14,604 nt of DNA, taken from assembly GCA_003663225.1 (NCBI GenBank), contig QMZP01000005.1, positions 1 to 14,604 of the forward strand, read 5' to 3'. Below, piece after piece: positions 1 through 13,916 of the stretch. This DNA is from Candidatus Aenigmatarchaeota archaeon (GTDB lineage Archaea; Aenigmatarchaeota; Aenigmatarchaeia; QMZP01). Below the pieces are notes generated by a model. That model saw only the letters and a list, made by a program, of their open reading frames with translations, was not told the DNA's origin and ran no database searches. Positions within the stretch are counted from its first letter, which is position 1. The number at the start of each line of letters is the position of its first letter. A program made the translations under genes and the position numbers.

Positions 1-2
1 GC

Positions 3-912: not shown

Positions 913-931
913 AAGAAAGATATGTCAGTAA

Positions 932-940
932 GTTTTTTAT
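932..940 (-). promoter_or_regulatory. possible TATA box for the 134-aa hypothetical gene
   Basis: On the minus strand this reads ATAAAAAAC, centred about 24 nt before the ATG at 912. That spacing would give a leaderless transcript. Prediction from sequence only. Confidence 0.3.
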
Positions 941-944
941 GTGA

Positions 945-1598
945 TTACGCGGGCTTCAGGACAAAAAGCATGTGGTCCTTCTCGTACGGGTCCAGCCTCA
1001 CCTTCTCCACGACATCAAAATGCCCGGAGAGCTTCTTCTCTTCGCGCCTGTATATGGCATCCGGGGCCTTGGTGACGTCTATGCTCCTGGATTTGAGGGA
1101 CAGCATAGCGAAGCCGTCGGGCTTCAGGAACCTCTTGCAGTTGCGTATCAGTATCTCCGACTGGTCGTCTGTCGCAACGTCCTGGAACACCACATCGGAC
1201 TGCTCCACCCAAGGGTAATCTTCAGGCTTTCTGGCGTTCGCGAGTATGGGTATCATGTTGCCCCTCTTCTCTGCCACCGGGTTCAGCTCCCTGAACGTAC
1301 GCTGGGATATCTCCACGCCGTATATCAGGCCCCGGCCGCCGACTATGTCAGAGAAATGGGAAGCGGTCTGGCCGCTGGCTATGCCCAGGTAGAGCACCGT
1401 CATCCCGGGCTTCAGGGGGAAGTTCTTGAGGCCGTTCGCTATGGCCGCAGCCGGCTTGGAGTGGTTCGGGTCCCATACCCTGTACTCCTTGCCTCCTGCA
1501 TTGACGAGCTGCTCGCTGTAGCTCCTGCTACCCGGTACCAGGTTCCTTGTCATTAACCTGCCACCATCACGCCAGACTCCGGGGAATATCTCTCTCAT
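945..1598 (-). CDS. flpA: Fibrillarin-like rRNA/tRNA 2'-O-methyltransferase
   Basis: Catalytic subunit of the archaeal C/D-box sRNP, which with Nop5 and L7Ae places 2'-O-methyl groups on rRNA and tRNA using S-adenosylmethionine. Landmarks, numbered from the ATG at 1598 (217 aa): the fibrillarin motif EYRVWDPNHSKPAAAI (38-53); SAM motif I VLYLGIASGQTASHFSDIVG (68-87); VFQDVA (137-142, with the expected acidic D140); SLKSRSIDVTK (167-177, with K169); and the C-terminal EKDHMLFVLK. The length fits the family (~220-230 aa). In-frame upstream codons at 1643 and 1607 exist, but a TATA-like AACATATAAT (1621-1630) is centred ~27 nt before 1598. This favours a leaderless start there; 1607 remains possible. 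The usual neighbour nop5 is not adjacent. Confidence 0.93.
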   Translation of the reverse strand: MREIFPGVWRDGGRLMTRNLVPGSRSYSEQLVNAGGKEYRVWDPNHSKPAAAIANGLKNFPLKPGMTVLYLGIASGQTASHFSDIVGGRGLIYGVEISQRTFRELNPVAEKRGNMIPILANARKPEDYPWVEQSDVVFQDVATDDQSEILIRNCKRFLKPDGFAMLSLKSRSIDVTKAPDAIYRREEKKLSGHFDVVEKVRLDPYEKDHMLFVLKPA

Positions 1599-1620
1599 AC
1601 TCACCATAATGTATCGCGTA

Positions 1621-1630
1621 ATTATATGTT
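1621..1630 (-). promoter_or_regulatory. TATA box of flpA
   Basis: Minus-strand AACATATAAT, centred ~27 nt upstream of the ATG at 1598. Sequence-based prediction that also decides between the alternative flpA starts. Confidence 0.45.
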
Positions 1631-1648
1631 TTTCACAATACAAATCAA

Positions 1649-1656
1649 TTTAAATA
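1649..1656 (+). promoter_or_regulatory. TATA box of the zinc-module gene
   Basis: TTTAAATA on the plus strand predicts a transcription start near 1679 and thus a leader of ~44 nt. Unlike the leaderless neighbours, that leader contains a GGGTGGGA Shine-Dalgarno-like element (1713-1720) just before the ATG at 1723, and two upstream CCCAC copies complementary to it. Confidence 0.4.
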
Positions 1657-1722
1657 CGCTCAACATAGTTTTAACCCCATAAATCCCACGATGCCCACGT
1701 TTGATGGGGGGCGGGTGGGAAT

Positions 1723-2196
1723 ATGGAAATTCCGATATGCCAGATATGCAAAGAGCCGATAAACAACTTCGTCTGCTTAGAGTGCTTGGCAAAGGATATA
1801 AGCACATGGCTTCCGCCCGGGCTTTCAGACCGGTTCACGAAGTTCAATGATTGGTTTTTGGACACGTTCAAGCACATGCCGCACACAGTGACAAGGCACC
1901 ACATAGTCTGCGACTTGAGGGGCAAAGGGAGCGTATGCCTATACTGCTACGTTAACGAGGTGTTCCAGTGGTTGATGGGGGAGGATAAGCCTGTCGCAAG
2001 GCGTTTCAGGAAGCTGTTCTCATTCGGCATGAGGAAGGGGGATTTCAAGCAGATAATAAAGTCTCACGCAAAGCCTATAAGCGAGGTGGAAGAAATGGAA
2101 AAAGAAGAGGGCATATGTGACGAATGCGGGGAATACTCCGACGAGCTGCACATACTCAACGGAAGATGGGTATGCAGAGTGTGTTGGGGTGTTTGA
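1723..2196 (+). CDS. Protein with three cysteine-pair zinc-binding modules, 157 aa, function unknown
   Basis: I do not recognise a named family. The cysteines form three sets: C6-x2-C9 with C18-x2-C21; a central H59/H60/C63 with C72-x2-C75; and a C-terminal zinc-ribbon-like C132-x2-C135 with C151-x2-C154. Between them are aromatic-rich helices (FNDWFLDTF, NEVFQWLM) and a basic patch around residues 92-113. No membrane segment is present, so a cytosolic, zinc-stabilised adaptor or nucleic-acid-binding protein is plausible but unproven. The start is supported by a GGGTGGGA element 2 nt upstream of the ATG. The gene is divergent from flpA and is followed one base after its stop by a tiny Trp-rich ORF preceded by its own GGGGTG, so the two probably form one transcript. 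Confidence 0.75.
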   Translation: MEIPICQICKEPINNFVCLECLAKDISTWLPPGLSDRFTKFNDWFLDTFKHMPHTVTRHHIVCDLRGKGSVCLYCYVNEVFQWLMGEDKPVARRFRKLFSFGMRKGDFKQIIKSHAKPISEVEEMEKEEGICDECGEYSDELHILNGRWVCRVCWGV

Positions 2197-2197
2197 C

Positions 2198-2278
2198 ATG
2201 GAAAAGAAAAAAAAGGAAAAGTGGAAATGGAAGGACTTCGATTGGCATGACCCGGATGACTGGGACTGCAACTATTGA
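2198..2278 (+). CDS. Putative 26-aa Trp/Asp-rich microprotein
   Basis: A short ORF starts one base after the stop of the zinc-module gene. A GGGGTG Shine-Dalgarno-like element (2185-2190) sits 7 nt before its ATG, inside the end of the upstream gene, which is the arrangement expected for a coupled second cistron. The peptide begins with a lysine-rich stretch (MEKKKKEKWKWK), then DFDWHDPDDWDCNY: four Trp, one Cys and seven Asp in 26 residues, so it is strongly polarised between a basic and an acidic half. No known family is recognised. It could be a small partner of the zinc protein or an unexpressed chance ORF. The eight-A run (2206-2213 region) is prone to sequencing error, so the exact frame deserves care. 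Confidence 0.4.
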   Translation: MEKKKKEKWKWKDFDWHDPDDWDCNY

Positions 2279-2350
2279 TGGTAGCATGAAGGTGAAGAAG
2301 GAAGCTGGTTGGAAGGACTTCAAGTCAGAATACGGGATTATTAGCAGATG

Positions 2351-2635
2351 CTATATTTCAGCCCCGATAGCGCTCTTCAGGCTCCTCATCTTCTTCTTGT
2401 ATCTCCGAAGCCTGCGGTATGATTCTATTATCTCAACAAAGCCTATTACCGTAAGGACGCCGCCTACTGCTATGGATGCCAGGTTGCTGTAGAAGAGGTT
2501 TATTATGGCCACCCCAACCGCGACGAACGCCAGCCCTGTGCGCATGAATGACAGTATAGTCCTTTCCTTTGACAGCAGGGTCCTCTCCTCCGAGAGTATT
2601 GTCTGCTCTTCTGTCGGATCCCGCTTCTTTGGCAT
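2351..2635 (-). CDS. DUF202 (YidH-like) small membrane protein, 94 aa
   Basis: The conserved DUF202 signature ERTLLSKERTILSFMRTGLA (residues ~17-36) leads directly into the first membrane helix (about 33-51). A second helix follows (about 52-70) and then a very basic cytosolic tail (ESYRRLRRYKKKMRSLKS). This is the usual DUF202 layout at the usual length. The biochemical role of the family is not established; related small proteins are found in bacterial and archaeal membranes. The gene is divergent from the DNA ligase with only 33 bp between the two ATGs. A TTTATATTTT box (2657-2666, read on the minus strand) lies ~27 nt upstream, suggesting a leaderless transcript whose promoter abuts the ligase start. 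Confidence 0.85.
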   Translation of the reverse strand: MPKKRDPTEEQTILSEERTLLSKERTILSFMRTGLAFVAVGVAIINLFYSNLASIAVGGVLTVIGFVEIIESYRRLRRYKKKMRSLKSAIGAEI

Positions 2636-2637
2636 AT

Positions 2638-2647
2638 AGTATTATTA
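2638..2647 (+). promoter_or_regulatory. Possible TATA element of the DNA ligase gene
   Basis: TAGTATTATT is a weak TATA-like stretch centred ~26 nt before the ligase ATG, consistent with leaderless transcription. It lies next to the start of the divergent DUF202 gene, interlocking the two promoters. Confidence 0.3.
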
Positions 2648-2656
2648 CTTGCGGGC

Positions 2657-2666
2657 AAAATATAAA
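2657..2666 (-). promoter_or_regulatory. TATA box of the DUF202 gene
   Basis: Minus-strand TTTATATTTT centred ~27 nt from the ATG at 2635. It sits immediately in front of the ligase start codon at 2669, so TBP/TFB bound here would overlap the ligase transcription start. Confidence 0.5.
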
Positions 2667-2668
2667 GC

Positions 2669-4417
2669 ATGAAGTATCAGAAGCTCGCTGACGTCTACCA
2701 GAATCTGGAGAACACGCCAGCGAAGCTGGAGAAGGTGAAAATAATATCCAGGCTCATGAAGGAAGCGGACGACGAAGAACTCAAGATGATAGCCCTGCTT
2801 ATACAGGGCCGGGTGTTTCCCTCTTTCGATGACAGGGAAATCGGCATCGCGGCGCAGTCAATGGAGAAGATAATAGTGCAGGCTACAGGCTTCTCTTCCA
2901 AGGACGTGGGCAGCATGTTCAGGGAGCTCGGCGACTACGGGCTGGTAGCAGAGAAGCTCATAGGAAAGAAGAAGCAGCAGACGCTGTTCAACAGGCCCCT
3001 GACCCTGGAGAAGGTCTTCGACAACCTGCAAAAGATATCGGGCATGGAAGGCAGGGGGTCGCAGGACAGGAAGTTCAGGCTGGTCGCGGAACTCGTGTCA
3101 TCTGCCAAGCCACTGGAGGCCAAATACATAGTCAGGACTACCATAGGCGACCTTAGGATAGGCGTGGCAGAGGGCATAGTAAGGGATGCCATAGCGGACG
3201 CGTTCCTTGACACGGAGACCCAGGAGAAGAAGAAGGAGTCTACCAGTGCTGTCGAGTGGGCATGGTTCCTGCGGCCGGACTACAGCGAGGTCGCTCTGAT
3301 AGCGAAAAGGAAGGGCATAGATGGCCTGAACAACGTCAAGATACAGGTAGGCAAGCCGTATCACGTCCTGCTGGCGGAGAAGTCGCCGGGTCTCGAGGAG
3401 GCGCTCAGCTCGTTCGAGAAGCCGGCGCTCGAATACAAGTACGATGGCGCAAGGGTCATAATACACAAGAAGGGTGACAAGATGTGGTTCTATACCAGGC
3501 GGCTGGAGAATGTAACCAGGCAGTTTCCGGAGCTCCAGGATTTCGTCAAGGAAGGAGTCAGGGCCAGGGAATGCATAATAGAGGGGGAGATGATAGGATT
3601 CAGCAAGGAGACGGGGAAGCCCATGCCGTTCCAGTTCCTTTCGCAGCGCATAAAGAGGAAGTATGACATAGACAGGATGGCGAAGGAGATACCGATATCA
3701 GTCAACGTCTTTGATATAGTTTATCTGGACGGCAAGGACCTGTTCGAGAGGCCGCTCTCGGAGAGATGGGAAACCCTCAAAACCATAATAAGGCCGATAA
3801 AAGGAAAGTTCCAGCTCGCTGAGCACATAGAGACCAAGGATCTGGAAGAAGCGGACAAATTCTACAGGAAGGCGTTGAGCGCAAGCCAGGAGGGCCTTAT
3901 AGTAAAGAACATGGACGCGAAATACCATCCAGGGAGGAGGGTTGCCGGGGGATGGCTCAAGGTGAAGCCTGTCATGGAGACGCTTGACCTGGCGATAATA
4001 GGCGCGACGTGGGGCACCGGGAAGCGCGCCGGGTGGCTGGGTTCGTACATACTGGGCTGCAGGGATGAGGAGAGCGGCAACTTCCTGAACTGCGGGATGA
4101 TAGGCACCGGCATAAAGGAGAAGAAGTCCGAGAAGGTGGAAGAGGACTCAGCGGGTGCTGTCACGTTCAAGGAGCTCACTGACATGCTCAAGTCCAAGAT
4201 AACCGAAGAGCATGGCAGCGAAGTCAAGATAAAGCCCGATCTCGTGGTCGAGGTCGCATACGAAGAGATACAGAAGAGCCCGAACTACGAATCCGGCTAT
4301 GCCCTCAGGTTCCCCAGGGTGCTCAAGATACGGCCGGACAAGGACGTGTCCGAAGCTGACACGACAGGCCGCATAAAGGAGCTATATTCGCAGCAGAAGG
4401 GCAAGCGTTCCGGGTGA
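2669..4417 (+). CDS. lig: ATP-dependent DNA ligase (replicative, archaeal type)
   Basis: Seals nicks during replication (Okazaki fragments) and repair through a lysyl-AMP intermediate. At 582 aa it has the full archaeal/LigI-like length. The N-terminal DNA-binding domain (about 1-240) contains the family segment RTTIGDLRIGVAEGIVRDA (156-174). The nucleotidyltransferase domain has motif I EYKYDGARV with adenylated lysine K257, motif III around WFYTRRLENVT, the VFDIVYLDG segment (347-355), motif IV EGLIVKN (408-414) and motif V WLKVKP (429-434). The OB domain follows, ending with the family-like FPRVLKIRPDKDVSEAD. No key residue is missing. The ATG at 2669 begins the well-aligned N-terminus (MKYQKLADVYQNLE). 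The gene shares a 33-bp divergent promoter with the DUF202 gene. Confidence 0.97.
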   Translation: MKYQKLADVYQNLENTPAKLEKVKIISRLMKEADDEELKMIALLIQGRVFPSFDDREIGIAAQSMEKIIVQATGFSSKDVGSMFRELGDYGLVAEKLIGKKKQQTLFNRPLTLEKVFDNLQKISGMEGRGSQDRKFRLVAELVSSAKPLEAKYIVRTTIGDLRIGVAEGIVRDAIADAFLDTETQEKKKESTSAVEWAWFLRPDYSEVALIAKRKGIDGLNNVKIQVGKPYHVLLAEKSPGLEEALSSFEKPALEYKYDGARVIIHKKGDKMWFYTRRLENVTRQFPELQDFVKEGVRARECIIEGEMIGFSKETGKPMPFQFLSQRIKRKYDIDRMAKEIPISVNVFDIVYLDGKDLFERPLSERWETLKTIIRPIKGKFQLAEHIETKDLEEADKFYRKALSASQEGLIVKNMDAKYHPGRRVAGGWLKVKPVMETLDLAIIGATWGTGKRAGWLGSYILGCRDEESGNFLNCGMIGTGIKEKKSEKVEEDSAGAVTFKELTDMLKSKITEEHGSEVKIKPDLVVEVAYEEIQKSPNYESGYALRFPRVLKIRPDKDVSEADTTGRIKELYSQQKGKRSG

Positions 4418-4557
4418 GACAAAAACACAGAGCAGGCTGTCCGCCATGTTCACCGAATATCCCAAGAAGCAGGCGGACGACACCTGAGTTGTTGTACTTG
4501 GCTGCCATAACATTAATTCACAATTCATTTAACTTTACCCCTAATCAGTGACAAACA

Positions 4558-4565
4558 TTTATAAA
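4558..4565 (+). promoter_or_regulatory. Distal TATA box upstream of the TrmB-family gene
   Basis: TTTATAAA is a near-consensus archaeal TATA box. It predicts a start near 4588 and a ~78-nt leader before the regulator ATG, or alternatively a short separate RNA. The rest of the 248-bp ligase/regulator gap holds a second TATA box and an imperfect palindrome, but no gene or tRNA that I can see. Confidence 0.4.
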
Positions 4566-4607
4566 GCTTATCGATATTATTTAGAAAGCCAACACGGGGG
4601 ATAAACC

Positions 4608-4620
4608 ACTATTAAAGAGT
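4608..4620 (+). promoter_or_regulatory. Candidate operator: imperfect palindrome before the proximal TATA box
   Basis: ACTATTAAAGAGT matches its reverse complement at 10 of 13 positions, with perfect ACT/AGT arms. It lies 6 bp upstream of the proximal TATA box of the regulator gene. TrmB-family proteins commonly bind short palindromes near their own promoters, so autoregulation is a reasonable inference. Not verified. Confidence 0.3.
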
Positions 4621-4626
4621 AAAATG

Positions 4627-4634
4627 TATTTAAA
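4627..4634 (+). promoter_or_regulatory. Proximal TATA box of the TrmB-family gene
   Basis: TATTTAAA predicts a start near 4657, leaving a ~9-nt leader containing GTGAT, which is complementary to the archaeal 16S 3' end, just before the ATG at 4666. Confidence 0.45.
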
Positions 4635-4665
4635 CAATATAGGATATAATTAAATAAGTGATGGT

Positions 4666-5466
4666 ATGGTCGGAAACACCGAAATACTGGATACGCTCAA
4701 AAGCATTGGGCTGAACCTGTATGAGAGGAAGATTTTCGTAGCCCTGCTCGCAAAGGGCATAGCCACTGCGGCGCAGGTATCCGAAATTGCCGGTGTCCCG
4801 AGATCACGTTCTTACGACATACTTGAATCGCTGGCAGAGAAAGGCTTTGTGGTAGTTCAGCCATCAAAGCCTATAAAGTACGTAGCGCTGAGGCCTTCCG
4901 AGGCGCTGGAGAAGACAAAGGAGAATCTCTCAAGGAAGCACAGCGAGATGGTCAGCAGGATAGACAGCCTGAAGAGCTCCAAGGTGCTGGACGAGCTCGA
5001 GAACATATACAATCAGGGGTTCAACCTGGTGAGGCCATCAGAGATGACCGGCACACTAAAGGGCAGATTCACGATAAACAGGCAGCTCAGGTCGGTCCTG
5101 AAGGACGCAAAGAGCAATGTCCACATGGTGACCAGCGAATCCGGGCTTAAGGACCTTCACCAGAACCATCTGAGGATACTGAAGAAGGTTGCCAGGAGGG
5201 GCGTGAAGCTGCGCATACTGGCACCCACTGCTGACAGGTCGACTGTAAAGGCGATGTCAGAGATAGCGGAGATAAGGGCGCTGAAGGAGGATGTCGGTAG
5301 GTTCACCGTCGTTGACGACGACCATGTGTTCTTCTCGCTTACTGACGAGTCAGGCGACGAATCCCAGGATGTAGCCCTGTGGGCGAACTCACCGCATGCC
5401 GCATCGAACATAGCGAAGCCGCTCTTTGAAAAGCTGTGGAAGAACAGCGGCACGATTGGGAAATGA
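4666..5466 (+). CDS. TrmB-family transcriptional regulator
   Basis: A DNA-binding protein of 266 aa. The N-terminal winged helix-turn-helix (about 8-75) has the TrmB pattern: GLNLYERKIFVALLAKGIAT, then AAQVSEIAGVPRSRSYDIL (recognition helix) and a wing ending GFVVVQPSKPIKYVAL. A charged helix (about 78-112) probably gives the dimerising coiled coil. The C-terminal half, with VARRGVKLRILAP (~178-190) and VDDDHVFFSL, resembles the PLD-like TrmB C-terminal domain, not the long sugar-binding domain of Thermococcus TrmB (~340 aa), so the effector cannot be guessed. Two TATA boxes and a palindrome precede it. It ends 1 bp from the convergent porB stop; adjacency alone does not make porB its target. 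Confidence 0.88.
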   Translation: MVGNTEILDTLKSIGLNLYERKIFVALLAKGIATAAQVSEIAGVPRSRSYDILESLAEKGFVVVQPSKPIKYVALRPSEALEKTKENLSRKHSEMVSRIDSLKSSKVLDELENIYNQGFNLVRPSEMTGTLKGRFTINRQLRSVLKDAKSNVHMVTSESGLKDLHQNHLRILKKVARRGVKLRILAPTADRSTVKAMSEIAEIRALKEDVGRFTVVDDDHVFFSLTDESGDESQDVALWANSPHAASNIAKPLFEKLWKNSGTIGK

Positions 5467-5467
5467 A

Positions 5468-7462
5468 TCAGAGTTTGACTTCTGACTTTTCTATCTTCTC
5501 AAGCCTTTCAAATTCAGAATCTACATATTTCTGTATAACATCTATGTCAGCATCATTCAGGTGCTTGAACCTTCCCTGTATCTTCAGGTACTCCCCCACG
5601 GGCTTCCTGTTGGCCACGCGGTGCGTTATCCTCAGCTGGCCATTCTCTATCTCGTAGAGCACCCACATTCCGGTTTCCACTGCCAGCCTTGAAACCTTTA
5701 CGGTATCAGCGCTCTCGAACTTCCAGCCAGTCGGGCACGGGCTGTGTATGTGCAGGAAGGACGGCTGCATCTCGAACGCCTTCTTGACTTTGTTTATAAG
5801 GTCGGTCGGGTATGCCACTGATGCAGATGCGACGTAAGGTATCTTGTGAGCCGCAACTATCTCGGCTATGGGCTTCTTGAATTCCTGCTTGCCTATGGAC
5901 TTGCTGCCAGTGGGCGAGGTGGTGGTCCACGCGCCGTAGGGCGTGGCTCCGGAGCGCTGCACGCCGGTGTTATGCACTACTATACCATCTGCGATGAAAT
6001 TGTGTTCCCCGTCGACCCTCAGGTCCAGAGTCTGCTCTTTTCCAATATGTTTCTTGTATTTGATTTTTTCCATCTCGAAATGCTTGTTGCCTATAAGGAA
6101 GTTCTGGTACTTGTACTGGGACGGATACTTATCCGCGTTCCATTCTTTCCTTCTCGAAAAGCATATGTATCCACCTTCAGTGTCCTTGAGCAATTTTCTG
6201 TAAACCACGAACGTACCTTTCCTGGTTTTCCTCCAATGAATCTTTCCTACCCTGTAGCCCATGGTCTGAAGCAGCAATTTCAGATTCTTGAGCAATGACC
6301 TGCTTGAAGAAATCAACCTTATGCTATTGTCTTCTGCGAAGTACCCATCAGCCGCAACAAGCCCTCTTACAAACGCCTCTTTTTCGGGTTCAGGTAGTGT
6401 GAAAACCCAGCCCGGAACGGTTTTGTTTTTTGCCCCCTTGCCGAATCCAAGCGAATCTATGAATCTTGCAACATTGACTGAATTTATGTACAAATAGTTT
6501 TCATCCACCCTGCTGATGCCTGATTTGAATATTCTGTGGTGCAATTCAAGCAGGCGCGCCCTTTCGACCGAACCCTCCGGTATTGCGAAGCCGGTTTCGG
6601 CCTTTTCGGGCCTGCACCATCCATCACCCACAAACATTCCCAGATACTCCATCAGTTCTGGTGATGATTTTTCAGGAATTTCCACGTTGTTTATTTTGTT
6701 GACCTTGTAGTCTCCTTTCTTAGATTTCTTGATTTTGGGGAAAACAAAAGATATGTCCATGTCAAGACCCTTAAGTGCCACCACATAGTCCCCGATTTTC
6801 AGTTCTTCAAGTGTTTTCCATACCAACTCGTTCTGTTTCCCCCTGCCGTTTTTCTTGAGTGTAAGGAACGGGTGGTTACCAGTGGCCCGTATCACATGGT
6901 GCATGGTTCCGAGGTCAAAGACGTCCTTAACTCCGTTATCAAAGATGCCAGTACATTCCTTCAATACAGGTTCGTGGGTTTTCATGTCAAATGCATAGAG
7001 CTTTTCGCCTTTCTTTATTTCCGTAATTCTTTTCAGCCCGTCTTCTGTCATCACTGACGTAGAACGGCTCAGGCAATTCGCATAACACTCATTATCAACG
7101 CATATCTGCGTCACCTTGTGGCCCCTCTCCAGCATGCCTGACAGGGCCTGGAACCCTATGTCAAACGTGCCGCCATCGCCTGCTATGGCCATAACCTTCC
7201 AGTCCTTGCCCATGCTCTTGACTGCCGCTTCCATCCCGGAAGCCACCGAAGATGCTGTCTCGAAAGCACAGTGAACCCACGGGACATTCCATGCTGTCCG
7301 GGGGTATATGGACGTTGTTACCTCAAGGCATGAGGTGGCATTGCTCACCAGAACGTTCTTCGGCGCGCCGCGTGATATGAGGTTCACGGCAATCGCTACG
7401 CCGCAGCCCGGGCACATGGTATGCCCGGATGATATCAGACCCTGATTGTCTTTCTCCGCCAT
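5468..7462 (-). CDS. porB: Pyruvate:ferredoxin oxidoreductase beta subunit precursor, interrupted by an intein
   Basis: The 664-residue precursor consists of extein 1-129, intein 130-498 and extein 499-664, so the spliced subunit would be 295 aa, normal for PorB. This subunit binds thiamine diphosphate and one [4Fe-4S] cluster and oxidatively decarboxylates pyruvate to acetyl-CoA, reducing ferredoxin. Seen: HTMCPGCG with C17 and C20, a third cysteine C45 (NATSCLEV), a fourth C576 (HSPCPTGW), and the ThDP/Mg motif GDGG (95-98) through DNE (123-125). Another 2-oxoacid substrate cannot be excluded. A minus-strand TTTAAAAA (7486-7493) lies ~27 nt before the ATG, suggesting leaderless expression. 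The gene stands alone: no alpha, gamma or delta subunit gene is in the window. It meets the TrmB-family gene tail to tail 1 bp apart. Confidence 0.95.
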   Translation of the reverse strand: MAEKDNQGLISSGHTMCPGCGVAIAVNLISRGAPKNVLVSNATSCLEVTTSIYPRTAWNVPWVHCAFETASSVASGMEAAVKSMGKDWKVMAIAGDGGTFDIGFQALSGMLERGHKVTQICVDNECYANCLSRSTSVMTEDGLKRITEIKKGEKLYAFDMKTHEPVLKECTGIFDNGVKDVFDLGTMHHVIRATGNHPFLTLKKNGRGKQNELVWKTLEELKIGDYVVALKGLDMDISFVFPKIKKSKKGDYKVNKINNVEIPEKSSPELMEYLGMFVGDGWCRPEKAETGFAIPEGSVERARLLELHHRIFKSGISRVDENYLYINSVNVARFIDSLGFGKGAKNKTVPGWVFTLPEPEKEAFVRGLVAADGYFAEDNSIRLISSSRSLLKNLKLLLQTMGYRVGKIHWRKTRKGTFVVYRKLLKDTEGGYICFSRRKEWNADKYPSQYKYQNFLIGNKHFEMEKIKYKKHIGKEQTLDLRVDGEHNFIADGIVVHNTGVQRSGATPYGAWTTTSPTGSKSIGKQEFKKPIAEIVAAHKIPYVASASVAYPTDLINKVKKAFEMQPSFLHIHSPCPTGWKFESADTVKVSRLAVETGMWVLYEIENGQLRITHRVANRKPVGEYLKIQGRFKHLNDADIDVIQKYVDSEFERLEKIEKSEVKL
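5969..7075 (-). mobile_element. Intein with LAGLIDADG homing endonuclease inside porB
   Basis: A 369-codon in-frame insertion splits the conserved PorB segment between NECYAN and TGVQRSGATPYGA. Splicing motifs are all present: Cys1 at the N-splice junction (CLSRSTSV), block B TGNHPF (intein residues T65 and H68), block F GEHNFIADG, and the terminal VVHN with penultimate His and final Asn, followed by Thr as +1 nucleophile. The endonuclease has both LAGLIDADG-type helices, LGMFVGDGW and VRGLVAADGY, each keeping its acidic residue (D151 and D243), so homing activity is likely intact. The DNA is more AT-rich than the host: I count 21/60 G+C at 6661-6720 against 35/60 in the extein at 7201-7260, consistent with horizontal acquisition. 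Confidence 0.96.
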
Positions 7463-7485
7463 GTATATTGCTTCTCCCCAGACGC

Positions 7486-7493
7486 TTTTTAAA
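7486..7493 (-). promoter_or_regulatory. TATA box of porB
   Basis: Minus-strand TTTAAAAA centred ~27 nt before the porB ATG at 7462, consistent with a leaderless transcript separate from the upstream membrane-protein gene. Confidence 0.45.
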
Positions 7494-7523
7494 GTTACCT
7501 ATATACCATGCTCTATTGTCGAA

Positions 7524-7542
7524 CCAAAAAAGGAAAAATTGC
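7524..7542 (-). terminator. T-rich terminator after the 81-aa membrane protein gene
   Basis: Read on the minus strand this is CAATTTTTCCTTTTTTTGG: two T runs of five and seven beginning 9 nt after the stop of the 81-aa gene. U-rich tracts without a hairpin are the usual archaeal intrinsic terminators. It separates that gene from porB. Confidence 0.5.
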
Positions 7543-7551
7543 CTGCTTAGG

Positions 7552-7797
7552 TCACTTCTTTTTCTTTTCCTCGGCTTTCAGTTCCTTCTCAGCCTTGATC
7601 TCGTCAAGCTCCAGCCAGACGATGAACAGGCCAATCATTATAAGGAACGGCGGTATAATCCCTGTCAGTGTTATTATGAAGTTCTGCAACCAGAACGTGC
7701 CGATTCCAGAGACCTCAAAGAGAACGCCGTTTGCGAGCAAACCGAGTCCTGCGACCAGTACTATGAGGCCAACTATGACCTTAACTGCTGCGTTCAT
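7552..7797 (-). CDS. Small membrane protein with two helices, 81 aa
   Basis: I do not recognise the family. Two hydrophobic helices (about residues 5-27 and 38-62) are joined by a short polar loop (NGVLFEVSGIGTFWLQN). A cytosolic tail follows: it starts acidic (ELDEIKAEKE) and ends in EEKKKK. No catalytic residue or cysteine is seen, so a structural or scaffold role in the membrane is as much as can be suggested. The start is well supported by a perfect GGAGG (minus strand, 7803-7807) 5 nt before the ATG, and by the palindromic TATA box at 7831-7840, which predicts a ~12-nt leader. It is divergent from ribosomal L15e and followed by a T-rich terminator. Confidence 0.75.
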   Translation of the reverse strand: MNAAVKVIVGLIVLVAGLGLLANGVLFEVSGIGTFWLQNFIITLTGIIPPFLIMIGLFIVWLELDEIKAEKELKAEEKKKK

Positions 7798-7830
7798 AGA
7801 ATCCTCCGTGGTTTATATTGATTCGAATAA

Positions 7831-7840
7831 TATTTAAATA
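7831..7840. promoter_or_regulatory. Palindromic TATA box shared by the 81-aa gene and L15e
   Basis: TATTTAAATA is a perfect 10-bp palindrome and archaeal TATA consensus. Placing starts ~26 nt from its centre on each side gives about 7809 (minus) and 7862 (plus). These are ~12 nt from the ATG at 7797 and from the L15e ATG at 7874 respectively, so one box could serve both directions. Confidence 0.5.
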
Positions 7841-7873
7841 CATTCTTGCTAAATGTCAGTAATCGTGATCGAT

Positions 7874-8350
7874 ATGGAGACAGCGAACGACACAAGCAAA
7901 CAGAACGTGATGAGATGGAGAAGGCAGGGCACAATCGAGAGGGTAGAGAAACCCACCAACCTTTCCAGGGCAAGGAAGCTCGGATACAAGGCAAAGCAGG
8001 GGTTCGTGGTCCTGAGGGTGAGGGTTCCCAAGGGCAAGAGGAAGAGGCCCAAGCCCGCGGGCGGCAGAAACCCCAGGAAGGCAGGGCGCTTCTTTACATT
8101 GGACAAGTCCAAGCAGCAGGTAGCAGAGGAGAAGGCCTCCAGGAAACACCCCAACATGGAAGTCATGAACTCCTACATCGCAGGGGAGGACGGAAGCTAC
8201 AAGTGGTTCGAGTGCATAGTTGTGGACAGGTCGCACCCGGCTGTCAGGAAGGACAAGGAAAGGAAGTGGATCGCAGCAAAAGGCCAGAGAGGCAGGGCAT
8301 TCCGGGGCTTGACGTCTTCAGGCAAGAAATCGCGCGGCCTTAGGGCATGA
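7874..8350 (+). CDS. rpl15e: Large-subunit ribosomal protein L15e (short form)
   Basis: An rRNA-binding protein of the 50S subunit. The conserved core is clear: WRRQGTIERVEKPTNLSRAR, then LGYKAKQGFVVLRVRV, GGRNPRKAGRFF, VAEEKASRKHPNMEVMNSY, WFECIVVDRSHPAV, and finally RGRAFRGLTSSGKKSRGLRA. Both ends are short. Typical archaeal L15e (~190-196 aa) has an N-terminal YxYIRxAW segment and a C-terminal GKGxEKxRPSLRxN tail, and neither is present. I prefer the ATG at 7874 (158 aa) over 7853 (165 aa). The TATA box predicts a start near 7862, downstream of 7853, and GTGATC (7865-7870), complementary to the 16S 3' end, precedes 7874. No nearby frame encodes the missing tail, so it is not a simple frameshift. 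Confidence 0.93.
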   Translation: METANDTSKQNVMRWRRQGTIERVEKPTNLSRARKLGYKAKQGFVVLRVRVPKGKRKRPKPAGGRNPRKAGRFFTLDKSKQQVAEEKASRKHPNMEVMNSYIAGEDGSYKWFECIVVDRSHPAVRKDKERKWIAAKGQRGRAFRGLTSSGKKSRGLRA

Positions 8351-8379
8351 TTTCTCCAAACCAGTAAGAACAAAGAACA

Positions 8380-8387
8380 TTTATAAA
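8380..8387 (+). promoter_or_regulatory. TATA box of the five-helix membrane protein gene
   Basis: TTTATAAA centred 26-27 nt before the ATG at 8410, the classic spacing for a leaderless archaeal transcript. Confidence 0.55.
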
Positions 8388-8409
8388 CTTATAGCGACAA
8401 ATAATTATC

Positions 8410-8928
8410 ATGGCATTCCTCGAAACAATGCTAAACAACCTGGTAACAATGGACTTTTTCCAGCTGCTGTTCCCGTTCCTTCTAACGCTGGCAATAGTGT
8501 ACGGGGTACTGATAAAGGGATTCGAGGACAGGCTTGGCAAGGGACCGATAGGGCTAATATCCATATTGATAGCGTTCTTTGTCATGCTGTACTCCAGCAT
8601 GTATTCATGGCTGTGGCAATGGCTGACCAACATATCCGGCGTATGGTTGGGAATCGCAATGGCTATACTGTTCCTGCTGATAACGCTTGCATTGGTCGGC
8701 ATAAAGGACCTGACTTCACTCAACTGGAAGTCCGCCATAATCGTGCTGATAGTCCTTTACATACTGGCGGTCGGCTTCCTCGGGGCAGCACCATTCGGGG
8801 GTTTCGGTCTTGGATCGATAGTGTTCAACTCTGAGCTCTGGACAATAGTGGCGTTCGTAATAATACTCGCTGTCGTGATGTGGTTCCTTTCCAGGGAAGG
8901 TAGCGGCGGCGGAGACAAGAAAGAGTAA
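8410..8928 (+). CDS. Integral membrane protein with five predicted helices, 172 aa
   Basis: I do not recognise the family. Hydrophobic segments lie at about residues 15-35, 47-68, 77-97, 107-126 and 142-160, joined by short loops. The first loop (KGFEDRLGKG) is the most charged. The third linker (IKDLTSLNWKS) is also polar. A glycine-rich stretch (LGAAPFGGFGLGS) follows helix 4. The protein ends in a Gly/Lys/Glu tail (SREGSGGGDKKE). There are no cysteines, no transporter signature and no catalytic motif, so only a membrane location can be stated. It has a strong TATA box for leaderless expression and is followed by a T-rich tract, so it appears to be a single-gene unit. Confidence 0.75.
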   Translation: MAFLETMLNNLVTMDFFQLLFPFLLTLAIVYGVLIKGFEDRLGKGPIGLISILIAFFVMLYSSMYSWLWQWLTNISGVWLGIAMAILFLLITLALVGIKDLTSLNWKSAIIVLIVLYILAVGFLGAAPFGGFGLGSIVFNSELWTIVAFVIILAVVMWFLSREGSGGGDKKE

Positions 8929-8945
8929 TTTATTTCTTTTTCTTC
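8929..8945 (+). terminator. T-rich terminator after the five-helix protein
   Basis: Directly after the TAA stop comes a pyrimidine tract (TTTATTTCTTTTTCTTC), typical of archaeal U-tract termination. Confidence 0.45.
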
Positions 8946-8946
8946 A

Positions 8947-8956
8947 ATATTTTATT
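8947..8956 (+). promoter_or_regulatory. TATA-like element of the cysteine-cluster gene pair
   Basis: ATATTTTATT is centred ~28 nt before the ATG at 8980, supporting that start over the ATG at 8974. It partly abuts the upstream terminator tract. Confidence 0.35.
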
Positions 8957-8979
8957 GCGTCTTACTGGAGGGTATGGGA

Positions 8980-9285
8980 ATGGCATCAAGATTTCCGGAT
9001 TCTTTCAAGAAGTTCAGCTGCATAAACTGCGGCAAGTGCTGCACTCTCACAGTCAAGCCTACCAATGAGGACATAAGGAAGATAGAGATGCTGGGTTATG
9101 ACAGGAAGAGGTTCCTGAGGAATGGGAACCTTGCGAAGGTCAACGGCGCATGCTGCTTTTTAGAGAAGCGTGATGGCGGATACTTCTGCAGCATACACGA
9201 GATGAAGCCGAAGGTCTGCAGGCAATACCCATTCACGAACTTGAAGAACGATAACCTTTTTAGCTGCCCGGCACTGAGGATATGA
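8980..9285 (+). CDS. YkgJ-family cysteine-cluster protein, short paralogue
   Basis: A member of the YkgJ/UPF0153-type family, proteins with a conserved cysteine cluster presumed to bind zinc or an Fe-S cluster; the molecular function is not established. In 101 aa it carries CINCGKCC near the N-terminus (C14, C17, C20, C21), ACCFLEK (C58, C59), FCSIHEMKPKVCRQYPF (C70, C80) and C96, matching the family order including the C-x-x-x-P end. The ATG at 8980 is preferred to 8974: GGAGG (8967-8971) sits 8 nt before it but only 2 nt before 8974. Its stop overlaps the start of the next, homologous gene (ATGA), so the two are translationally coupled. The shared LGYDRxxFL segment shows they are paralogues. 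Confidence 0.85.
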   Translation: MASRFPDSFKKFSCINCGKCCTLTVKPTNEDIRKIEMLGYDRKRFLRNGNLAKVNGACCFLEKRDGGYFCSIHEMKPKVCRQYPFTNLKNDNLFSCPALRI

Positions 9286-10184
9286 TAGGGCTGTCCTGCT
9301 TTATGAAATGGGAATGTGACATATGTGGAAGGTGCTGTAAGGGCCTCAGCGTAGAGATAACTGAATCCGATGCCAGGAGGCTCGAGAGCCTCGGATATGA
9401 CAGGAGCGACTTTCTCACCAAGAAGAACAATAAGCTGTTCCTCAAAAAGAAGTTCAGATGGTGCGTATTCCTGGAAGAAGACATGAAGTGCAAGATACAG
9501 AGAGTGCACGGTTATGACAGCAAGCCCGAGATATGCAAGGCCTTCCCCATAGCGGATGGTGCCAACCAGATGGTATGCGGCGTGTTCTCAGGGGAGGGGG
9601 AACTGGGCAAGGTAGGGAAGCAGAAGAACGGTCGGTACAGGGCCGGGAAGAATGTGATGTCAACAGAGGAGCTCATGGTGGCAATAAGGAAGCTCACACC
9701 GGACAATTACGGGGAGGTTTGGAACGGCCTGATGCGCAAGGTATCTGTGATGGAAGGGCCCCTGAAAGGGCATGACCACATGGAGAAGGTCATATCTGAT
9801 TCGGTCCCCATGAAGCCTTCAAGGCTGGTTATGAACAGCGTGCTGTCACAACACACAAGGCATCCCATCTACGGGCTGATAAAGCTGTACAAGGGCGACA
9901 GGGTAACTCTGAAGCTCCCAACAGGGCAGTTTGTGCTGGAGGGTCACGCGGCAGATAGGGTCAAAGTCAGGAGGGAAGACGTGAGCAACATGCTGAAGTT
10001 GCTGAAGGCAGGGCATGGCATACCAGCGGGCAAGGACTTCCCCACTCACCTGTCATTCATATTCTACTTCCTTGAGAGATTCTCAAAGAGCATAGCATAC
10101 AAGAACCGCAGGAAGGAAACCATAGCATCTGATGTGGCAAACGCTTATACAAAACTAAACAGCATCATAAGGTTTGTAGACTAA
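9282..10184 (+). CDS. YkgJ-family cysteine-cluster protein with long C-terminal extension, 300 aa
   Basis: Residues ~10-100 repeat the cluster of the preceding gene: ECDICGRCCKGLS (C12, C15, C18, C19), WCVFLEEDMKC (C61, C70), KPEICKAFPIADG (C85) and C99, with the shared LGYDRSDFL segment. The remaining ~200 residues have no recognised domain. They contain two GKxGKQKNGRYR-like basic stretches, a long helical region and a C-terminal helical part (FIFYFLERFSKSIAYKNRRKE) that is not clearly transmembrane. Metal binding is inferred from the family; the enzymatic role is unknown. The gene starts with ATG overlapping the previous stop by 4 nt; a second ATG at 9303 is possible. It ends directly against the convergent coiled-coil gene, with no base between the stops. 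Confidence 0.82.
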   Translation: MIGLSCFMKWECDICGRCCKGLSVEITESDARRLESLGYDRSDFLTKKNNKLFLKKKFRWCVFLEEDMKCKIQRVHGYDSKPEICKAFPIADGANQMVCGVFSGEGELGKVGKQKNGRYRAGKNVMSTEELMVAIRKLTPDNYGEVWNGLMRKVSVMEGPLKGHDHMEKVISDSVPMKPSRLVMNSVLSQHTRHPIYGLIKLYKGDRVTLKLPTGQFVLEGHAADRVKVRREDVSNMLKLLKAGHGIPAGKDFPTHLSFIFYFLERFSKSIAYKNRRKETIASDVANAYTKLNSIIRFVD

Positions 10185-11102
10185 TCATTTCCTTCTGAGC
10201 TCTTTGACAGCTTCCGAGAGCGACCGCAGGGTCTGCATCATCGGCGTCATGCTGTCCTTTACTACCTTCTCGACCGAGCCCATCCTGGCTGACATCTCTG
10301 TTATGGACTCACCGTACTGGTTTATCGACGATCTTATCTGCTCAACCTCGTTCTTGTTCTTGGCATCTACCCTGTGGAACTTGTCCTCGAGCATGTCTAT
10401 CTTGTCCTCGAGCCTCTTCATTTGGTCTGATATGTTGTCCACTTCCTTCCTAAACATATCCATCTTGTCTTCCATCATGGCCTCTACCATCTCTTCCGTC
10501 TCTCTCCTTGTCTCAAGGGATGATTCCTTGTGGGTCTGCCTAGGGCCCCTCACAGGAGGCAGCCCCTCGTCACCCAGGCCCGGTATTTTGAAGTCCTGCT
10601 CCACGTTCGGAGACGGTTCAACAGGCATCTGGTCCGGGTCAGGCAGGTCCGGGAGGTCGAAGTCGTTGTTCCCTCTCTGCTCCTCCATCCTCTGCATCTC
10701 ATTGACCGAGAAAGGCGGGGATGGCGATTCACGCCCGCGCTGCTGGGGCATGGGAGATCCCTGGTCTTCCGGGAATATCCTTCTCCTGTCCTGCGAGCTC
10801 GGCGGTGCCGGGGGCGCATCGAAACCCTGGTCGGGCTGCTGGTATTGCTGTTGGTATTGTGGCTGTTGCGGCCCGTATTCAGCGGTCCCTGCGCTGTTCT
10901 TTAGCGCCATCTTCATGGCAGCATCCACCTCCATGGGTGAATACCCCTCTGACCTCAGGTTCCTTATTATCTCAGGCTCTGAAAGGCCCTTGTCAGAAAG
11001 CGTTCTCACCCTTGAGCTCGCAGAGGGCTTGCCTTTGGCCCCGGATGCCGGCGAGCCTTTCCTTTGCCCGCCCTTGTCCTTTTTCCCGAAAGGCAGTTTC
11101 AT
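10185..11102 (-). CDS. Coiled-coil protein with N-terminal UBA-like helices and Pro/Gln-rich linker
   Basis: Numbered from the ATG at 11102 (305 aa; a TTG at 11111 is also in frame), four parts are visible. First is a basic leader rich in Lys, Gly and Ser (1-32). Second is a short helical unit, LSDKGLSEPEIIRNLRSEGY followed by SPMEVDAAMKMAL (about 35-67), that looks like a UBA/CUE-type three-helix fold. Third is a disordered Pro/Gln/Asp linker (about 72-190) with PQQPQYQQQYQQ. Fourth is a long heptad-rich coiled coil (about 195-303). No catalytic motif is present, so a scaffold or adaptor role is inferred. It follows the FlaC-like gene by 30 bp on the same strand, probably cotranscribed, and both are divergent from a secretion-type ATPase, suggesting a shared pilus or archaellum-like machine. 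No family is named with confidence. Confidence 0.75.
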   Translation of the reverse strand: MKLPFGKKDKGGQRKGSPASGAKGKPSASSRVRTLSDKGLSEPEIIRNLRSEGYSPMEVDAAMKMALKNSAGTAEYGPQQPQYQQQYQQPDQGFDAPPAPPSSQDRRRIFPEDQGSPMPQQRGRESPSPPFSVNEMQRMEEQRGNNDFDLPDLPDPDQMPVEPSPNVEQDFKIPGLGDEGLPPVRGPRQTHKESSLETRRETEEMVEAMMEDKMDMFRKEVDNISDQMKRLEDKIDMLEDKFHRVDAKNKNEVEQIRSSINQYGESITEMSARMGSVEKVVKDSMTPMMQTLRSLSEAVKELRRK

Positions 11103-11132
11103 GAAAATCAACTATTAATTATTTTGTCAAAG

Positions 11133-11555
11133 TCACTTATAAGCTGAGGCCTTCTTAGCCTCTTCCAGCTTCTTTTCGATGAGCCTTTCAACCTCATCGC
11201 GGGTCAGGAACTCCGACTTGAGCGGGCTGTACATGTCGACAAGGCTTTCCAGCTCCTTTATGTTGGATACGCTTGCCAGCTTCTTTATCTCCTTTATGAG
11301 TTCCCTTATGGTCGATTCGAGTTTCGTGACGCGGTTATTAATCTCTTCTGTCTTCGCTGAGACCTCGGATACTGTCTTCTCCGTCTGCTTCCTCTGTGTG
11401 ACCACGTTCTGCTCCACCGATTCCATCCTGGATTTCACAATGTCGGCCTGCTGCTCGAGTATCCTTATCCTGGCAGTGTCGGTGTTAGTCCTGTCCACCA
11501 GCTCCCTTATTATCGTCTTTATCGTCCTCTTCTGTGGCTGTTTAGCAAAAACCAT
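11133..11555 (-). CDS. Coiled-coil protein resembling archaellum accessory protein FlaC/ArlC-type
   Basis: 140 aa from the ATG at 11555. An in-frame GTG at 11567 is less likely because GGGTGGG lies 7 nt before the ATG, and the TATA box places the transcription start near 11567. Most of the protein (about 15-100) is a heptad-rich coiled coil. Near the end comes NIKELESLVDMYSPLKSEFL followed by TRDEVERLIEKKLEE. This recalls the conserved end of FlaC/FlaD-like archaellum accessory proteins, where a short (Y)xxxxxxF segment follows the coiled coil. The similarity is from memory of the family and moderate. No membrane segment or catalytic residue is seen. It heads a two-gene unit divergent from the ATPase, with which it may assemble. 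Confidence 0.72.
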   Translation of the reverse strand: MVFAKQPQKRTIKTIIRELVDRTNTDTARIRILEQQADIVKSRMESVEQNVVTQRKQTEKTVSEVSAKTEEINNRVTKLESTIRELIKEIKKLASVSNIKELESLVDMYSPLKSEFLTRDEVERLIEKKLEEAKKASAYK

Positions 11556-11588
11556 AAAATTACCCACCCTGCGCCAAGCGCTTGCTTG

Positions 11589-11598
11589 TTTTATATTT
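11589..11598 (-). promoter_or_regulatory. TATA box of the coiled-coil operon
   Basis: Minus-strand AAATATAAAA predicts a start near 11567 and a 12-nt leader holding GGGTGGG before the ATG at 11555. Confidence 0.5.
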
Positions 11599-11608
11599 GA
11601 TGAGGCCG

Positions 11609-11616
11609 AATAAAAG
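11609..11616 (+). promoter_or_regulatory. TATA-like element of the secretion ATPase gene
   Basis: AATAAAAG predicts a start near 11639 and a ~19-nt leader containing a run of seven G (11647-11653) 4 nt before the ATG at 11658. It lies back to back with the promoter of the coiled-coil operon in a 102-bp gap. Confidence 0.4.
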
Positions 11617-11657
11617 CTTTAATTCTGCCTCCCCTAAATATAGATTGGGGGGGACAA

Positions 11658-13916
11658 ATGCCAGTATGCAACTATGATTATGACGAGAACAAGATGCAGG
11701 TCCGGATAAACTGCCTGAGCTGCATATACGGCTCTTCTATAGAGGACTATCCCGACTGCATGGCGAGGGTCATAGACATAATACTCGAGGTCAAGAAGGT
11801 CACCTCCGTGACACTTGCCAGGAACAGGGAATACGAGTACGACTATCCGCAGGTAAAGCTCCTCGTCGAGATAGCCAATGTCATAGAGTGGGTGACCAGG
11901 GAGAAGCTGCTGTCCAAGACCAATATGGCAGGCAAGGAGTGCAGCAGATGCTACTCGGACTGGTTCTCCGTGATGGAGAACATAGTGACCGACCTTCTGA
12001 GGAAGGACCCCATAGGAGGCTACGTCGAGCTCATACGTGAGATGAGGAAGATAAACTACAAGATGAAGCGCGCTTCGTCCGACATATGCTACAAGTGCTA
12101 CAAGAACTACATAGACAACACGCTCCAGCCGCTCAGGGAGAGGCTGGAAGCCACTGAGCTTATAAGGAAGAACATGAAGAACCTCGCCGGTTACCACGTC
12201 GGTGACAGGACCATATACAGGGACCTGTTCATGCCAACCATCAGGCCGAACTTCATGCTCACGAGGTACATGATAACGCCGCCAGAGGGCGGCAGGAGCG
12301 TCGACCGCTACATGGTGGGCGACACCAAGGTGGAGATATACAAGCTCCCCAATACCACCCAGTACTTCTACCACGCGCTCCCGCCAGAGTTCAGGATGAG
12401 CGAGGAGAAGTATTCTATACTGGACTCTGTCAGGAGGTACATGGCAACGCACAGGCCCAAGACCGCGGAATTCGTTAGGTCTGACAAGGTCAGGGAGGTC
12501 TTCTACAACATAGGTAAGGACATGACGGCCGACATGGCTGAGCAGATGAAGGCCAGCCTCACCACCAAGGAGCTGGATCAGCTCGCCGACATCCTGACAA
12601 GGTACACAGCAGGCATGGGTGTGCTTGAGGTCCTGCTGGCAGACGAGAAGATACAGGATCTTTACATAAACTCGCCCATAGAGAGGCAGCCCATACTCAT
12701 ATACCACCAGGATTGGGGGGAATGCAAGACCAATCTCATACCAACGATGGAGGACGCCGAGGCATGGGCCACCAGGCTGAGGATAATGTCTGGCAGGCCC
12801 CTTGACGAGGCCAACCCTGTGCTGGACACTGACATAAAGGTCCCTGGAGGCAGCGCAAGGTTCGCCGTGATAACCAAGTCGCTGTCGCCGCACGGCCTAG
12901 GGTTCGCTATCAGGAGGCACAGGGACAAGCCATGGACACTGCCGCTGTTTATAAAGAGCCGCATGATAAACCCGACAGCAGCAGGTCTGCTCTCGTTCCT
13001 CATAGACGGGACAGTGTCCATGCTCATAGCAGGCGGCCGGGGCGCAGGAAAGACGTCGATGCTCGGGGCACTCATGCTGGAGATATTGCCACAGACCAGG
13101 ATAGTGACCATAGAGGACACGCTGGAGCTCCCTGTTGACAAGCTCAGGGAGCTTCATTACAACGTCGAGAGGCTGAAGAGCCGGTCCGTGATAACCAGGG
13201 TGGAGACCGAGATGCCTGCTGACGAGGCGCTGAGGACCGCGCTCAGGCTGGGTGATTCGGCAATGATAGTGGGCGAGGTCAGGAGCGTCGAGGCAAAGGC
13301 GCTGTACGAGGCGATGCGTATAGGCGCACTGTCCAACGTCGTGGCAGGCACCATACACGGTGAGTCCGCCTATGGCGTATATGACAGGGTCGTGAACGAC
13401 CTCAGCGTGCCGCCCACATCCTTCAAGGCTACCGACATCATAGCGGTCTCCAAGACGCTCAGGAGCGCTGATGGGCTCCACAGATTCAGGAGGATGACGG
13501 AAATAACGGAAGTGAGGAAGGAATGGAGCGAAGACCCGTCGAGGGAGGGGGGCTTCGTGAACCTTATGGAATACTCAGGAAAGGAAGACAAGCTCAAGCC
13601 CACGGACACCCTGCTTAACGGAGAGTCCGAGGTCATAAACAGGATAGCGTCCTTAGTAAAGGAATGGTCAGGCAACTGGGACGCGGTATGGGCGGACATA
13701 GAGCTCAGGGCAAAGATAAAGGAGACCATAGTGAAGATGGCGGACGAGCTGAAGCGGCCGGAGCTGATGGAATCCGCGTGGGTTGTCAGGGCCAACTCAA
13801 AGCAGCACTTGATAGCAGAGGAGATAAGGAACGAGATAGGATACCCGGATCCCAAGAGGGTGTTCGAGAAATGGTACGCATGGTTCAAGTCAGCTACAGC
13901 GAAGTCCTCTGGGTGA
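11658..13916 (+). CDS. Type II/IV secretion system ATPase (GspE/VirB11/ArlI-like) with N-terminal cysteine-pair region
   Basis: A hexameric cytosolic motor ATPase of the type that drives type IV pilus, archaellum or secretion assembly. The core has Walker A GGRGAGKTS (459-467, K465), Asp box VTIEDTLELP, Walker B DSAMIVGEVRS (533-543, E540) and His box GTIHGES (H567), all intact. The middle region (about 305-450) matches the usual N-terminal domain of these ATPases (LADEKIQDLYINSP, then PGGSARFAV). Unusual is the first ~160 residues, with C4, C19-x2-C22, C34, C95-x2-C98 and C144-x2-C147, probably zinc-binding. At 752 aa it is longer than ArlI (~550). A GspF/TadC/ArlJ-type platform protein normally follows such a gene; here the next gene is convergent and overlaps by 23 bp. 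Confidence 0.93.
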   Translation: MPVCNYDYDENKMQVRINCLSCIYGSSIEDYPDCMARVIDIILEVKKVTSVTLARNREYEYDYPQVKLLVEIANVIEWVTREKLLSKTNMAGKECSRCYSDWFSVMENIVTDLLRKDPIGGYVELIREMRKINYKMKRASSDICYKCYKNYIDNTLQPLRERLEATELIRKNMKNLAGYHVGDRTIYRDLFMPTIRPNFMLTRYMITPPEGGRSVDRYMVGDTKVEIYKLPNTTQYFYHALPPEFRMSEEKYSILDSVRRYMATHRPKTAEFVRSDKVREVFYNIGKDMTADMAEQMKASLTTKELDQLADILTRYTAGMGVLEVLLADEKIQDLYINSPIERQPILIYHQDWGECKTNLIPTMEDAEAWATRLRIMSGRPLDEANPVLDTDIKVPGGSARFAVITKSLSPHGLGFAIRRHRDKPWTLPLFIKSRMINPTAAGLLSFLIDGTVSMLIAGGRGAGKTSMLGALMLEILPQTRIVTIEDTLELPVDKLRELHYNVERLKSRSVITRVETEMPADEALRTALRLGDSAMIVGEVRSVEAKALYEAMRIGALSNVVAGTIHGESAYGVYDRVVNDLSVPPTSFKATDIIAVSKTLRSADGLHRFRRMTEITEVRKEWSEDPSREGGFVNLMEYSGKEDKLKPTDTLLNGESEVINRIASLVKEWSGNWDAVWADIELRAKIKETIVKMADELKRPELMESAWVVRANSKQHLIAEEIRNEIGYPDPKRVFEKWYAWFKSATAKSSG

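Follow-up and report, generated by a model that had tools for sequence, protein, structure and literature searches.

Within a 14,604-nucleotide stretch of DNA from Candidatus Aenigmatarchaeota archaeon (contig QMZP01000005.1, positions 1 to 14,604; hereafter the window), the pyruvate synthase gene porB very probably carries a class 1 full-length LAGLIDADG (DOD) homing intein, inserted immediately C-terminal to the active-site Asn in the loop that binds thiamine diphosphate (ThDP). The best reading of this element is that it belongs to an allelic intein family specific to PorB, and that it presumably splices and homes. Removal of the 369-amino-acid (aa) insert from the 664-aa precursor leaves a PorB of 295 aa. 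The codons read in the DNA place the N-side boundary at AAT (Asn, -1) followed by TGC (Cys1, 7075-7073) and the C-side boundary at AAC (Asn369, 5971-5969) followed by ACC (Thr, +1), confirming the exact NECYAN/TGVQRS junction and the 295-aa spliced extein that had been proposed in an original prediction for this DNA. The spliced PorB scored 408.3 bits against the NCBIfam model NF008819 (pyruvate synthase PorB), narrowly above the cut-off of 405, while the unspliced precursor scored 385 bits and thus fell under it; against the 3-methyl-2-oxobutanoate model NF008818 the spliced protein reached 347.7, below that model's cut-off of 405. The intein has a lower GC content than the extein (44.7% versus 54.5%; 54% versus 67% at third positions), which fits a foreign origin. 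The features are as follows, with residue counts referring to the 163 distinct sequences among 169 pooled complete PorB inteins.

5468..7462, minus strand: porB precursor open reading frame (ORF), 664 aa, stop within the coordinates; the frame is open over the full 664 aa
7076..7462, minus strand: N-extein, PorB residues 1-129, ending in DNECYAN; aligns contiguously with the intein-free PorBs L006-L018
5969..7075, minus strand: intein, 369 aa, Cys1 to Asn369, precursor residues 130-498; PF14890, PF14528 and predicted fold
7073..7075, minus strand: Cys1 codon TGC, N-terminal splicing nucleophile; Cys in 163/163
6953..6955, minus strand: Cys41 codon, non-catalytic cysteine in the strand between blocks A and B; Cys in 163/163
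6872..6883, minus strand: block B TGNH, intein residues 65-68; T65 and H68 in 163/163
6086..6718, minus strand: LAGLIDADG homing endonuclease region, about intein residues 120-330; PF14528, DSSP and substitution rates
6623..6625, minus strand: D151, first LAGLIDADG acidic residue (LGMFVGDGW); Asp in 158/163, Asn in 3, gap in 2
6347..6349, minus strand: D243, second LAGLIDADG acidic residue (GLVAADGY); Asp in 160/163, Ser in 1, gap in 2
6002..6025, minus strand: block F, D351 to H358; both residues invariant (163/163)
5969..5974, minus strand: block G, His368-Asn369; 163/163, part of the cutting pattern (see below)
5468..5968, minus strand: C-extein, PorB residues 130-295 plus stop, starting with TGVQRS; boundary codons and translation

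Taken alone, the intein matched PF14890 (Intein_splicing; 54.6 bits, cut-off 35.8) over residues 9-369 and PF14528 (LAGLIDADG_3; 37.5 bits, cut-off 22.5) over residues 232-292. The whole precursor scored above the cut-off of TIGR01443 (27.5; cut-off 15.6) and just short of that of TIGR01445 (24.4; cut-off 24.5). We confirmed that, as predicted, the 369-aa element retains all splicing residues and both LAGLIDADG acidic residues, and the class 1 features seen in it are Cys1, the block B TxxH and His368-Asn369 followed by Thr at +1. The model of the intein was confident (pLDDT, predicted local distance difference test, 90.9), with DSSP helices and strands at residues 139-324, and its splicing domain is predicted to adopt the Hedgehog/intein fold. 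The model of the full precursor was loose (pLDDT 84.3, predicted template modelling score 0.58), with residues 127-129, 500-503 and 514-518 under 50; in this model the low values would fit a loop unable to form in the unspliced state, though they prove nothing.

The extein residue preceding the intein, N129, aligned with Asn996 of the Desulfovibrio africanus PFOR (alignment with 7plm/1b0p), which, according to PMC5020499, lines the substrate pocket and rotates upon pyruvate binding. For the Sulfolobus OFOR, the same source places the matching Leu123b five residues past Asn118b, which binds Mg2+ together with the Gly-Asp-Gly motif. Since the junction follows a residue aligned to the substrate-pocket Asn, the intein splits the cofactor/substrate loop, in agreement with the predicted insertion into the ThDP site, and to judge from the sequence the unspliced PorB precursor should be inactive. 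No PorB-type beta subunit other than the interrupted gene was found in the assembly, which supports the further claim that pyruvate oxidation in this organism depends on splicing; this claim is supported only in part, as the assembly is 63% complete, making a further porB copy possible, and a second, indolepyruvate (IOR)-type pair is present on contig C21. The genes porG, porD and porA lie together on another contig without porB, with a 192-aa ORF between porD and porA. A separation of porB from porA/porG caused by the intein was considered and rejected, because the partners are also absent beside intein-free porBs: a motif scan found neither porA nor porG in loci of 2.4-3.9 kb around 13 such genes of the same family. 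In most other intein-bearing loci, porA adjoins porB.

Empty sites were seen in close relatives. Within the same taxonomic family, porB was found in 16 of 24 genomes (E up to 1e-25), and while three copies were interrupted (G000, G011, G019), 13 (L006-L018, 61-80% identical) were contiguous across the junction, as were the alignments with 9bt4 and 5c4i. This comparison with intein-free homologues, which had been proposed as a check of the junction, confirmed it. It also bears on the possibility that the insert represents an ordinary domain of PorB and no intein at all, for which we found no support and which we regard as exceedingly improbable given the contiguous intein-free PorBs and the retention of every splicing residue. 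Across the window's phylum, a PorB-like match was found in 59 of 156 genomes and the intein in 3 of 156, and in the phylum of the Omnitrophota locus L057 the intein was found in 6 of 285 sampled genomes, L057's own genome included. Such frequencies indicate a sporadic element, as a homing intein would be.

The same insertion was found in many other lineages. A search with the whole precursor matched 608 proteins, and among the best 120 of these PF14890 was present in all 120; with the window added, both junctions were present in 119 of 121, the remaining two being N-truncated. A scan of GTDB representatives gave 263 intein relatives, and the best 80 of these comprised 54 loci with PorB inteins at the identical site and 26 with inteins in SufB-like hosts, at two sites. 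By record title, the 54 PorB loci spread over about ten archaeal groups (Aenigmatarchaeota, Micrarchaeota, Diapherotrites, Woesearchaeota/Nanoarchaeota, Altiarchaeales, Bathyarchaeia, Heimdallarchaeota, Hadesarchaea/Hadarchaeum, Methanophagales and an unplaced euryarchaeote) and seven bacterial groups (Omnitrophota, Aerophobetes, Patescibacteria/Parcubacteria, Vermiphilus, Cloacimonadota, Poribacteria and Subteraquimicrobium). Cys1, Cys41, Thr65, His68, Asp351, His358, His368 and Asn369 were invariant in all 163 distinct inteins, and the extein flanks (Asn at -1, Thr-Gly at +1/+2) were identical in all 163, where the cutting pattern itself required Asn|Cys and His-Asn|Thr-Gly and only truncated rows failed it. 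With 163 distinct relatives sharing the site and the residues, chance is excluded. One environmental contig PorB (P0005, 1005 aa, near the Aenigmarchaeota protein P0003) has, apart from the intein described here, another intein-like insert, which gives a LAGLIDADG match of its own and lies within the Gly-Asp-Gly motif region (AGDGG|...N|TFDIG); this marks a second site of insertion in PorB.

We compared the histories of intein and extein with the approximately unbiased (AU) test on 49 taxa. The extein tree was rejected by the intein data (AU p 6.9e-29) and the intein tree by the extein data (p 1.4e-5). In the intein tree, the window grouped with Aenigmatarchaeota L036, then Micrarchaeota L037 and then Aenigmatarchaeota L049 (supports 100, 100), while in the extein tree it grouped with L049 and L036, and the L037 extein was placed elsewhere. 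Accordingly, the window and L037 shared 73% identity in the intein and 47% in the extein, compared to 61% and 70% for the window and L049, which belongs to the same family. Similarly, the intein of Cloacimonadota L065 was placed inside Woesearchaeota-type inteins (support 100) and its extein with Poribacteria L069 (support 100).

The family also includes forms at different stages of decay. The inteins of L069 (349 aa, D151N) and L076 (326 aa) are decayed, and two Aerophobetes mini-inteins, L089 (173 aa) and L115 (165 aa), have lost the endonuclease while retaining all splicing residues. Selection was assessed by the ratio of nonsynonymous to synonymous substitution rates (dN/dS) in 18 chosen pairs, of which dS was computable in 13 and only 6 had a proportion of synonymous differences (pS) under 0.6, using limits for the LAGLIDADG region (about residues 120-330) chosen by the analyst. 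The endonuclease part gave a dN/dS of 0.04-0.17 in 13 of the 18 pairs, similar to the splicing part and the extein, and of 0.055-0.174 across the six with a pS below 0.6. These values point to purifying selection on the endonuclease domain in several relatives, where measurable. In the proposed cycle, Cys1 would start an N-S acyl shift after translation, the N-extein would then be taken over by Thr+1, and Asn369 would cyclise as the exteins join to the 295-aa PorB, which could take up ThDP and form a complex with PorA/G/D. The endonuclease, freed or still borne by the precursor, would cleave the conserved junction of porB copies that lack the intein, and repair of the gap from the interrupted copy would spread the element between lineages, occasionally between Archaea and Bacteria.

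Several points weigh against a splicing and homing element. D151 is replaced by Asn in three distinct relatives and D243 by Ser in one, and the domain is absent in two; dS was saturated for the three pairs that include the window and high in most of the rest; and splicing, cleavage and expression of the window intein are all steps that we infer. Both trees are strongly clustered by domain (4 and 6 changes of domain, compared to shuffle means of about 16), suggesting that exchange between domains is rare and that part of the conflict arises from porB's own movement. The hosts are mostly metagenome bins, so that single host labels can be wrong. Finally, neither a virus nor a plasmid was identified as a carrier: IMG/VR gave 16 weak intein relatives (21-27% identity), phages 31 records (those listed at 22-27%) and plasmids three partial matches (best 33%, covering one third of the length), none of them a PorB-type intein. 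An alternative explanation is that splicing has been kept but the endonuclease is inactive in this organism, the intein now being inherited vertically. This would be in line with the decayed relatives and the mini-forms, and the saturated dS of the window puts the constraint on its own copy beyond the reach of dN/dS. We consider it unlikely, however, because the window intein has both aspartates and the full domain intact, and because its intein is nearer to L037 and its extein nearer to L049. It could also be that the lateral spread mostly reflects porB moving together with its intein, compounded by binning errors, and not the intein homing on its own. The extein tree mixes phyla too, and some loci lie on short contigs (L065, 3,632 bases; L071, 4,604 bases), but L065 and L037 each show strongly supported, different placements of intein and extein on one contig, for which neither co-transfer nor binning accounts, rendering this explanation quite improbable. 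Homing of an allelic PorB intein remains the preferred reading.

The original prediction had also speculated that splicing responds to redox state, as Cys1 would stand beside Fe-S ligands. This was not borne out, since the junction adjoins the Mg/ThDP and substrate residues in sequence and not the CPGCG-type cysteines that serve as Fe-S ligands. The extein cysteine at -4 was also rejected as an intein-linked redox partner: it occurred in 6 of the 13 intein-free PorBs of the same family and in only 11 of the 163 that bear the intein, and thus follows lineage. A candidate within the intein is Cys41: this residue, or else another cysteine, could pair with Cys1 under oxidation and keep PorB unspliced until conditions are reducing, so that an oxygen-sensitive enzyme would become active only when able to work. 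Cys41 is invariant in PorB inteins, is kept in the two mini-inteins without endonuclease and is replaced by Val at the aligned position in 26 of 26 SufB-type inteins. A precedent exists in the DnaBi1 intein of M. smegmatis, in which Cys48, located between blocks A and B, is disulfide-bonded to the catalytic cysteine, as described in PMC6195587. However, this redox-sensing intein differs from the PorB intein in that it belongs to class 3 and has its nucleophile, Cys118, in block F. Cys48 is only a putative equivalent of Cys41, no link between Cys(-4) and the intein was seen, and a buried core cysteine would explain the Cys41 data equally well. A plain structural role of Cys41 is as likely as a redox role or likelier, and redox gating of this kind is doubtful. 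It is more doubtful still that PorB inteins, as selfish elements crossing domains, are kept partly for host use, with Cys41-Cys1 pairing holding an oxygen-sensitive oxidoreductase inert until the cytoplasm is reducing.

Compared to known inteins, the nearest non-PorB relatives by sequence, among the best 80 of 263, were the SufB inteins of Chloroflexi, Bipolaricaulota, Armatimonadota and others; the host family was checked for 8 of the 26 loci, all of which were SufB (TIGR01980, NCBIfam). Similar to the PorB intein, they have a class 1 type layout with Cys1, a TxNH block B, a C-terminal HN and an endonuclease-sized insert; unlike it, they occupy two SufB sites, have Ser at +1 and Val in place of Cys41, and are only about 29-34% identical. 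The best solved structural matches to the intein model were the TliVMA and PhoVMA inteins (7qsu, 7qss, 7qst), along with DnaB mini-inteins. The former are likewise full-length with a LAGLIDADG domain, but reside in the catalytic subunit of a V-type ATPase and share about 22% sequence identity. The splicing domain superposes closely on the cyanobacterial DnaB inteins (4o1r, 1mi8; root-mean-square deviation of 1.1 over 132 residues for 1mi8), and 4o1r was also the best PDB sequence match; these differ in their replicative helicase host, in the lack of an endonuclease in the solved forms and in having Val in place of Cys41.

Overall, the PorB intein is ordinary in mechanism and unusual in breadth and host. 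PorB had been predicted to be an unusual host, and a literature search that left supplements, subscription papers and InBase outside its scope turned up no paper that recognisably describes a PorB intein; PorB is also unnamed as an intein host in the accessible parts of PMC4853749, PMC7765530, PMC12713403, PMC3655853 and PMC2718504. The same insertion is, however, common in metagenomes, and an automatic JGI name with 'intein/homing endonuclease' already stands on 4 of the best 120 of the 608 precursor matches. An enzyme of central anaerobic carbon metabolism joins the hosts of homing inteins, with a single site of insertion in use across many groups of archaea and bacteria. Empty, full, decayed and endonuclease-free sites make every stage of the homing cycle visible in one gene, providing a clean natural data set on how such elements cross the domain boundary. 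For tests of splicing within a ThDP active site, the family also offers a set of inteins that includes its natural mini-forms (165 and 173 residues), and the invariant Cys41 makes the redox question testable by mutation.

Convergent to porB, the window contains a 266-aa ORF (4666-5466, plus strand) that ends just before the porB stop and encodes a putative TrmB-type transcription regulator. Further intein matches were found in the same genome in an archaeal helicase (PF21280) and in a PEP (phosphoenolpyruvate)-utilising enzyme, probably PEP synthase (L001, L005; contigs C102, C91), and four of five PF14890 matches in this genome were above the cut-off. GGQ is the universal motif of class-I release factors. 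The archaeal class-I release factor aRF1 was found with GGW in that place in the organism's own genome (L161/L004 on contig C4, L003/L196 on contig C79) and also among L162-L199, which would merit separate attention if no other release factors are present. With a match in 143 of 151 genomes of the class and only the most similar loci read, the motif was visible in 38 of 39 loci read (36 GGW, one GGQ in L195 and one GGM in L197). GGW was found in 31 of 33 genomes, in several of which an intein starts directly after the Trp.
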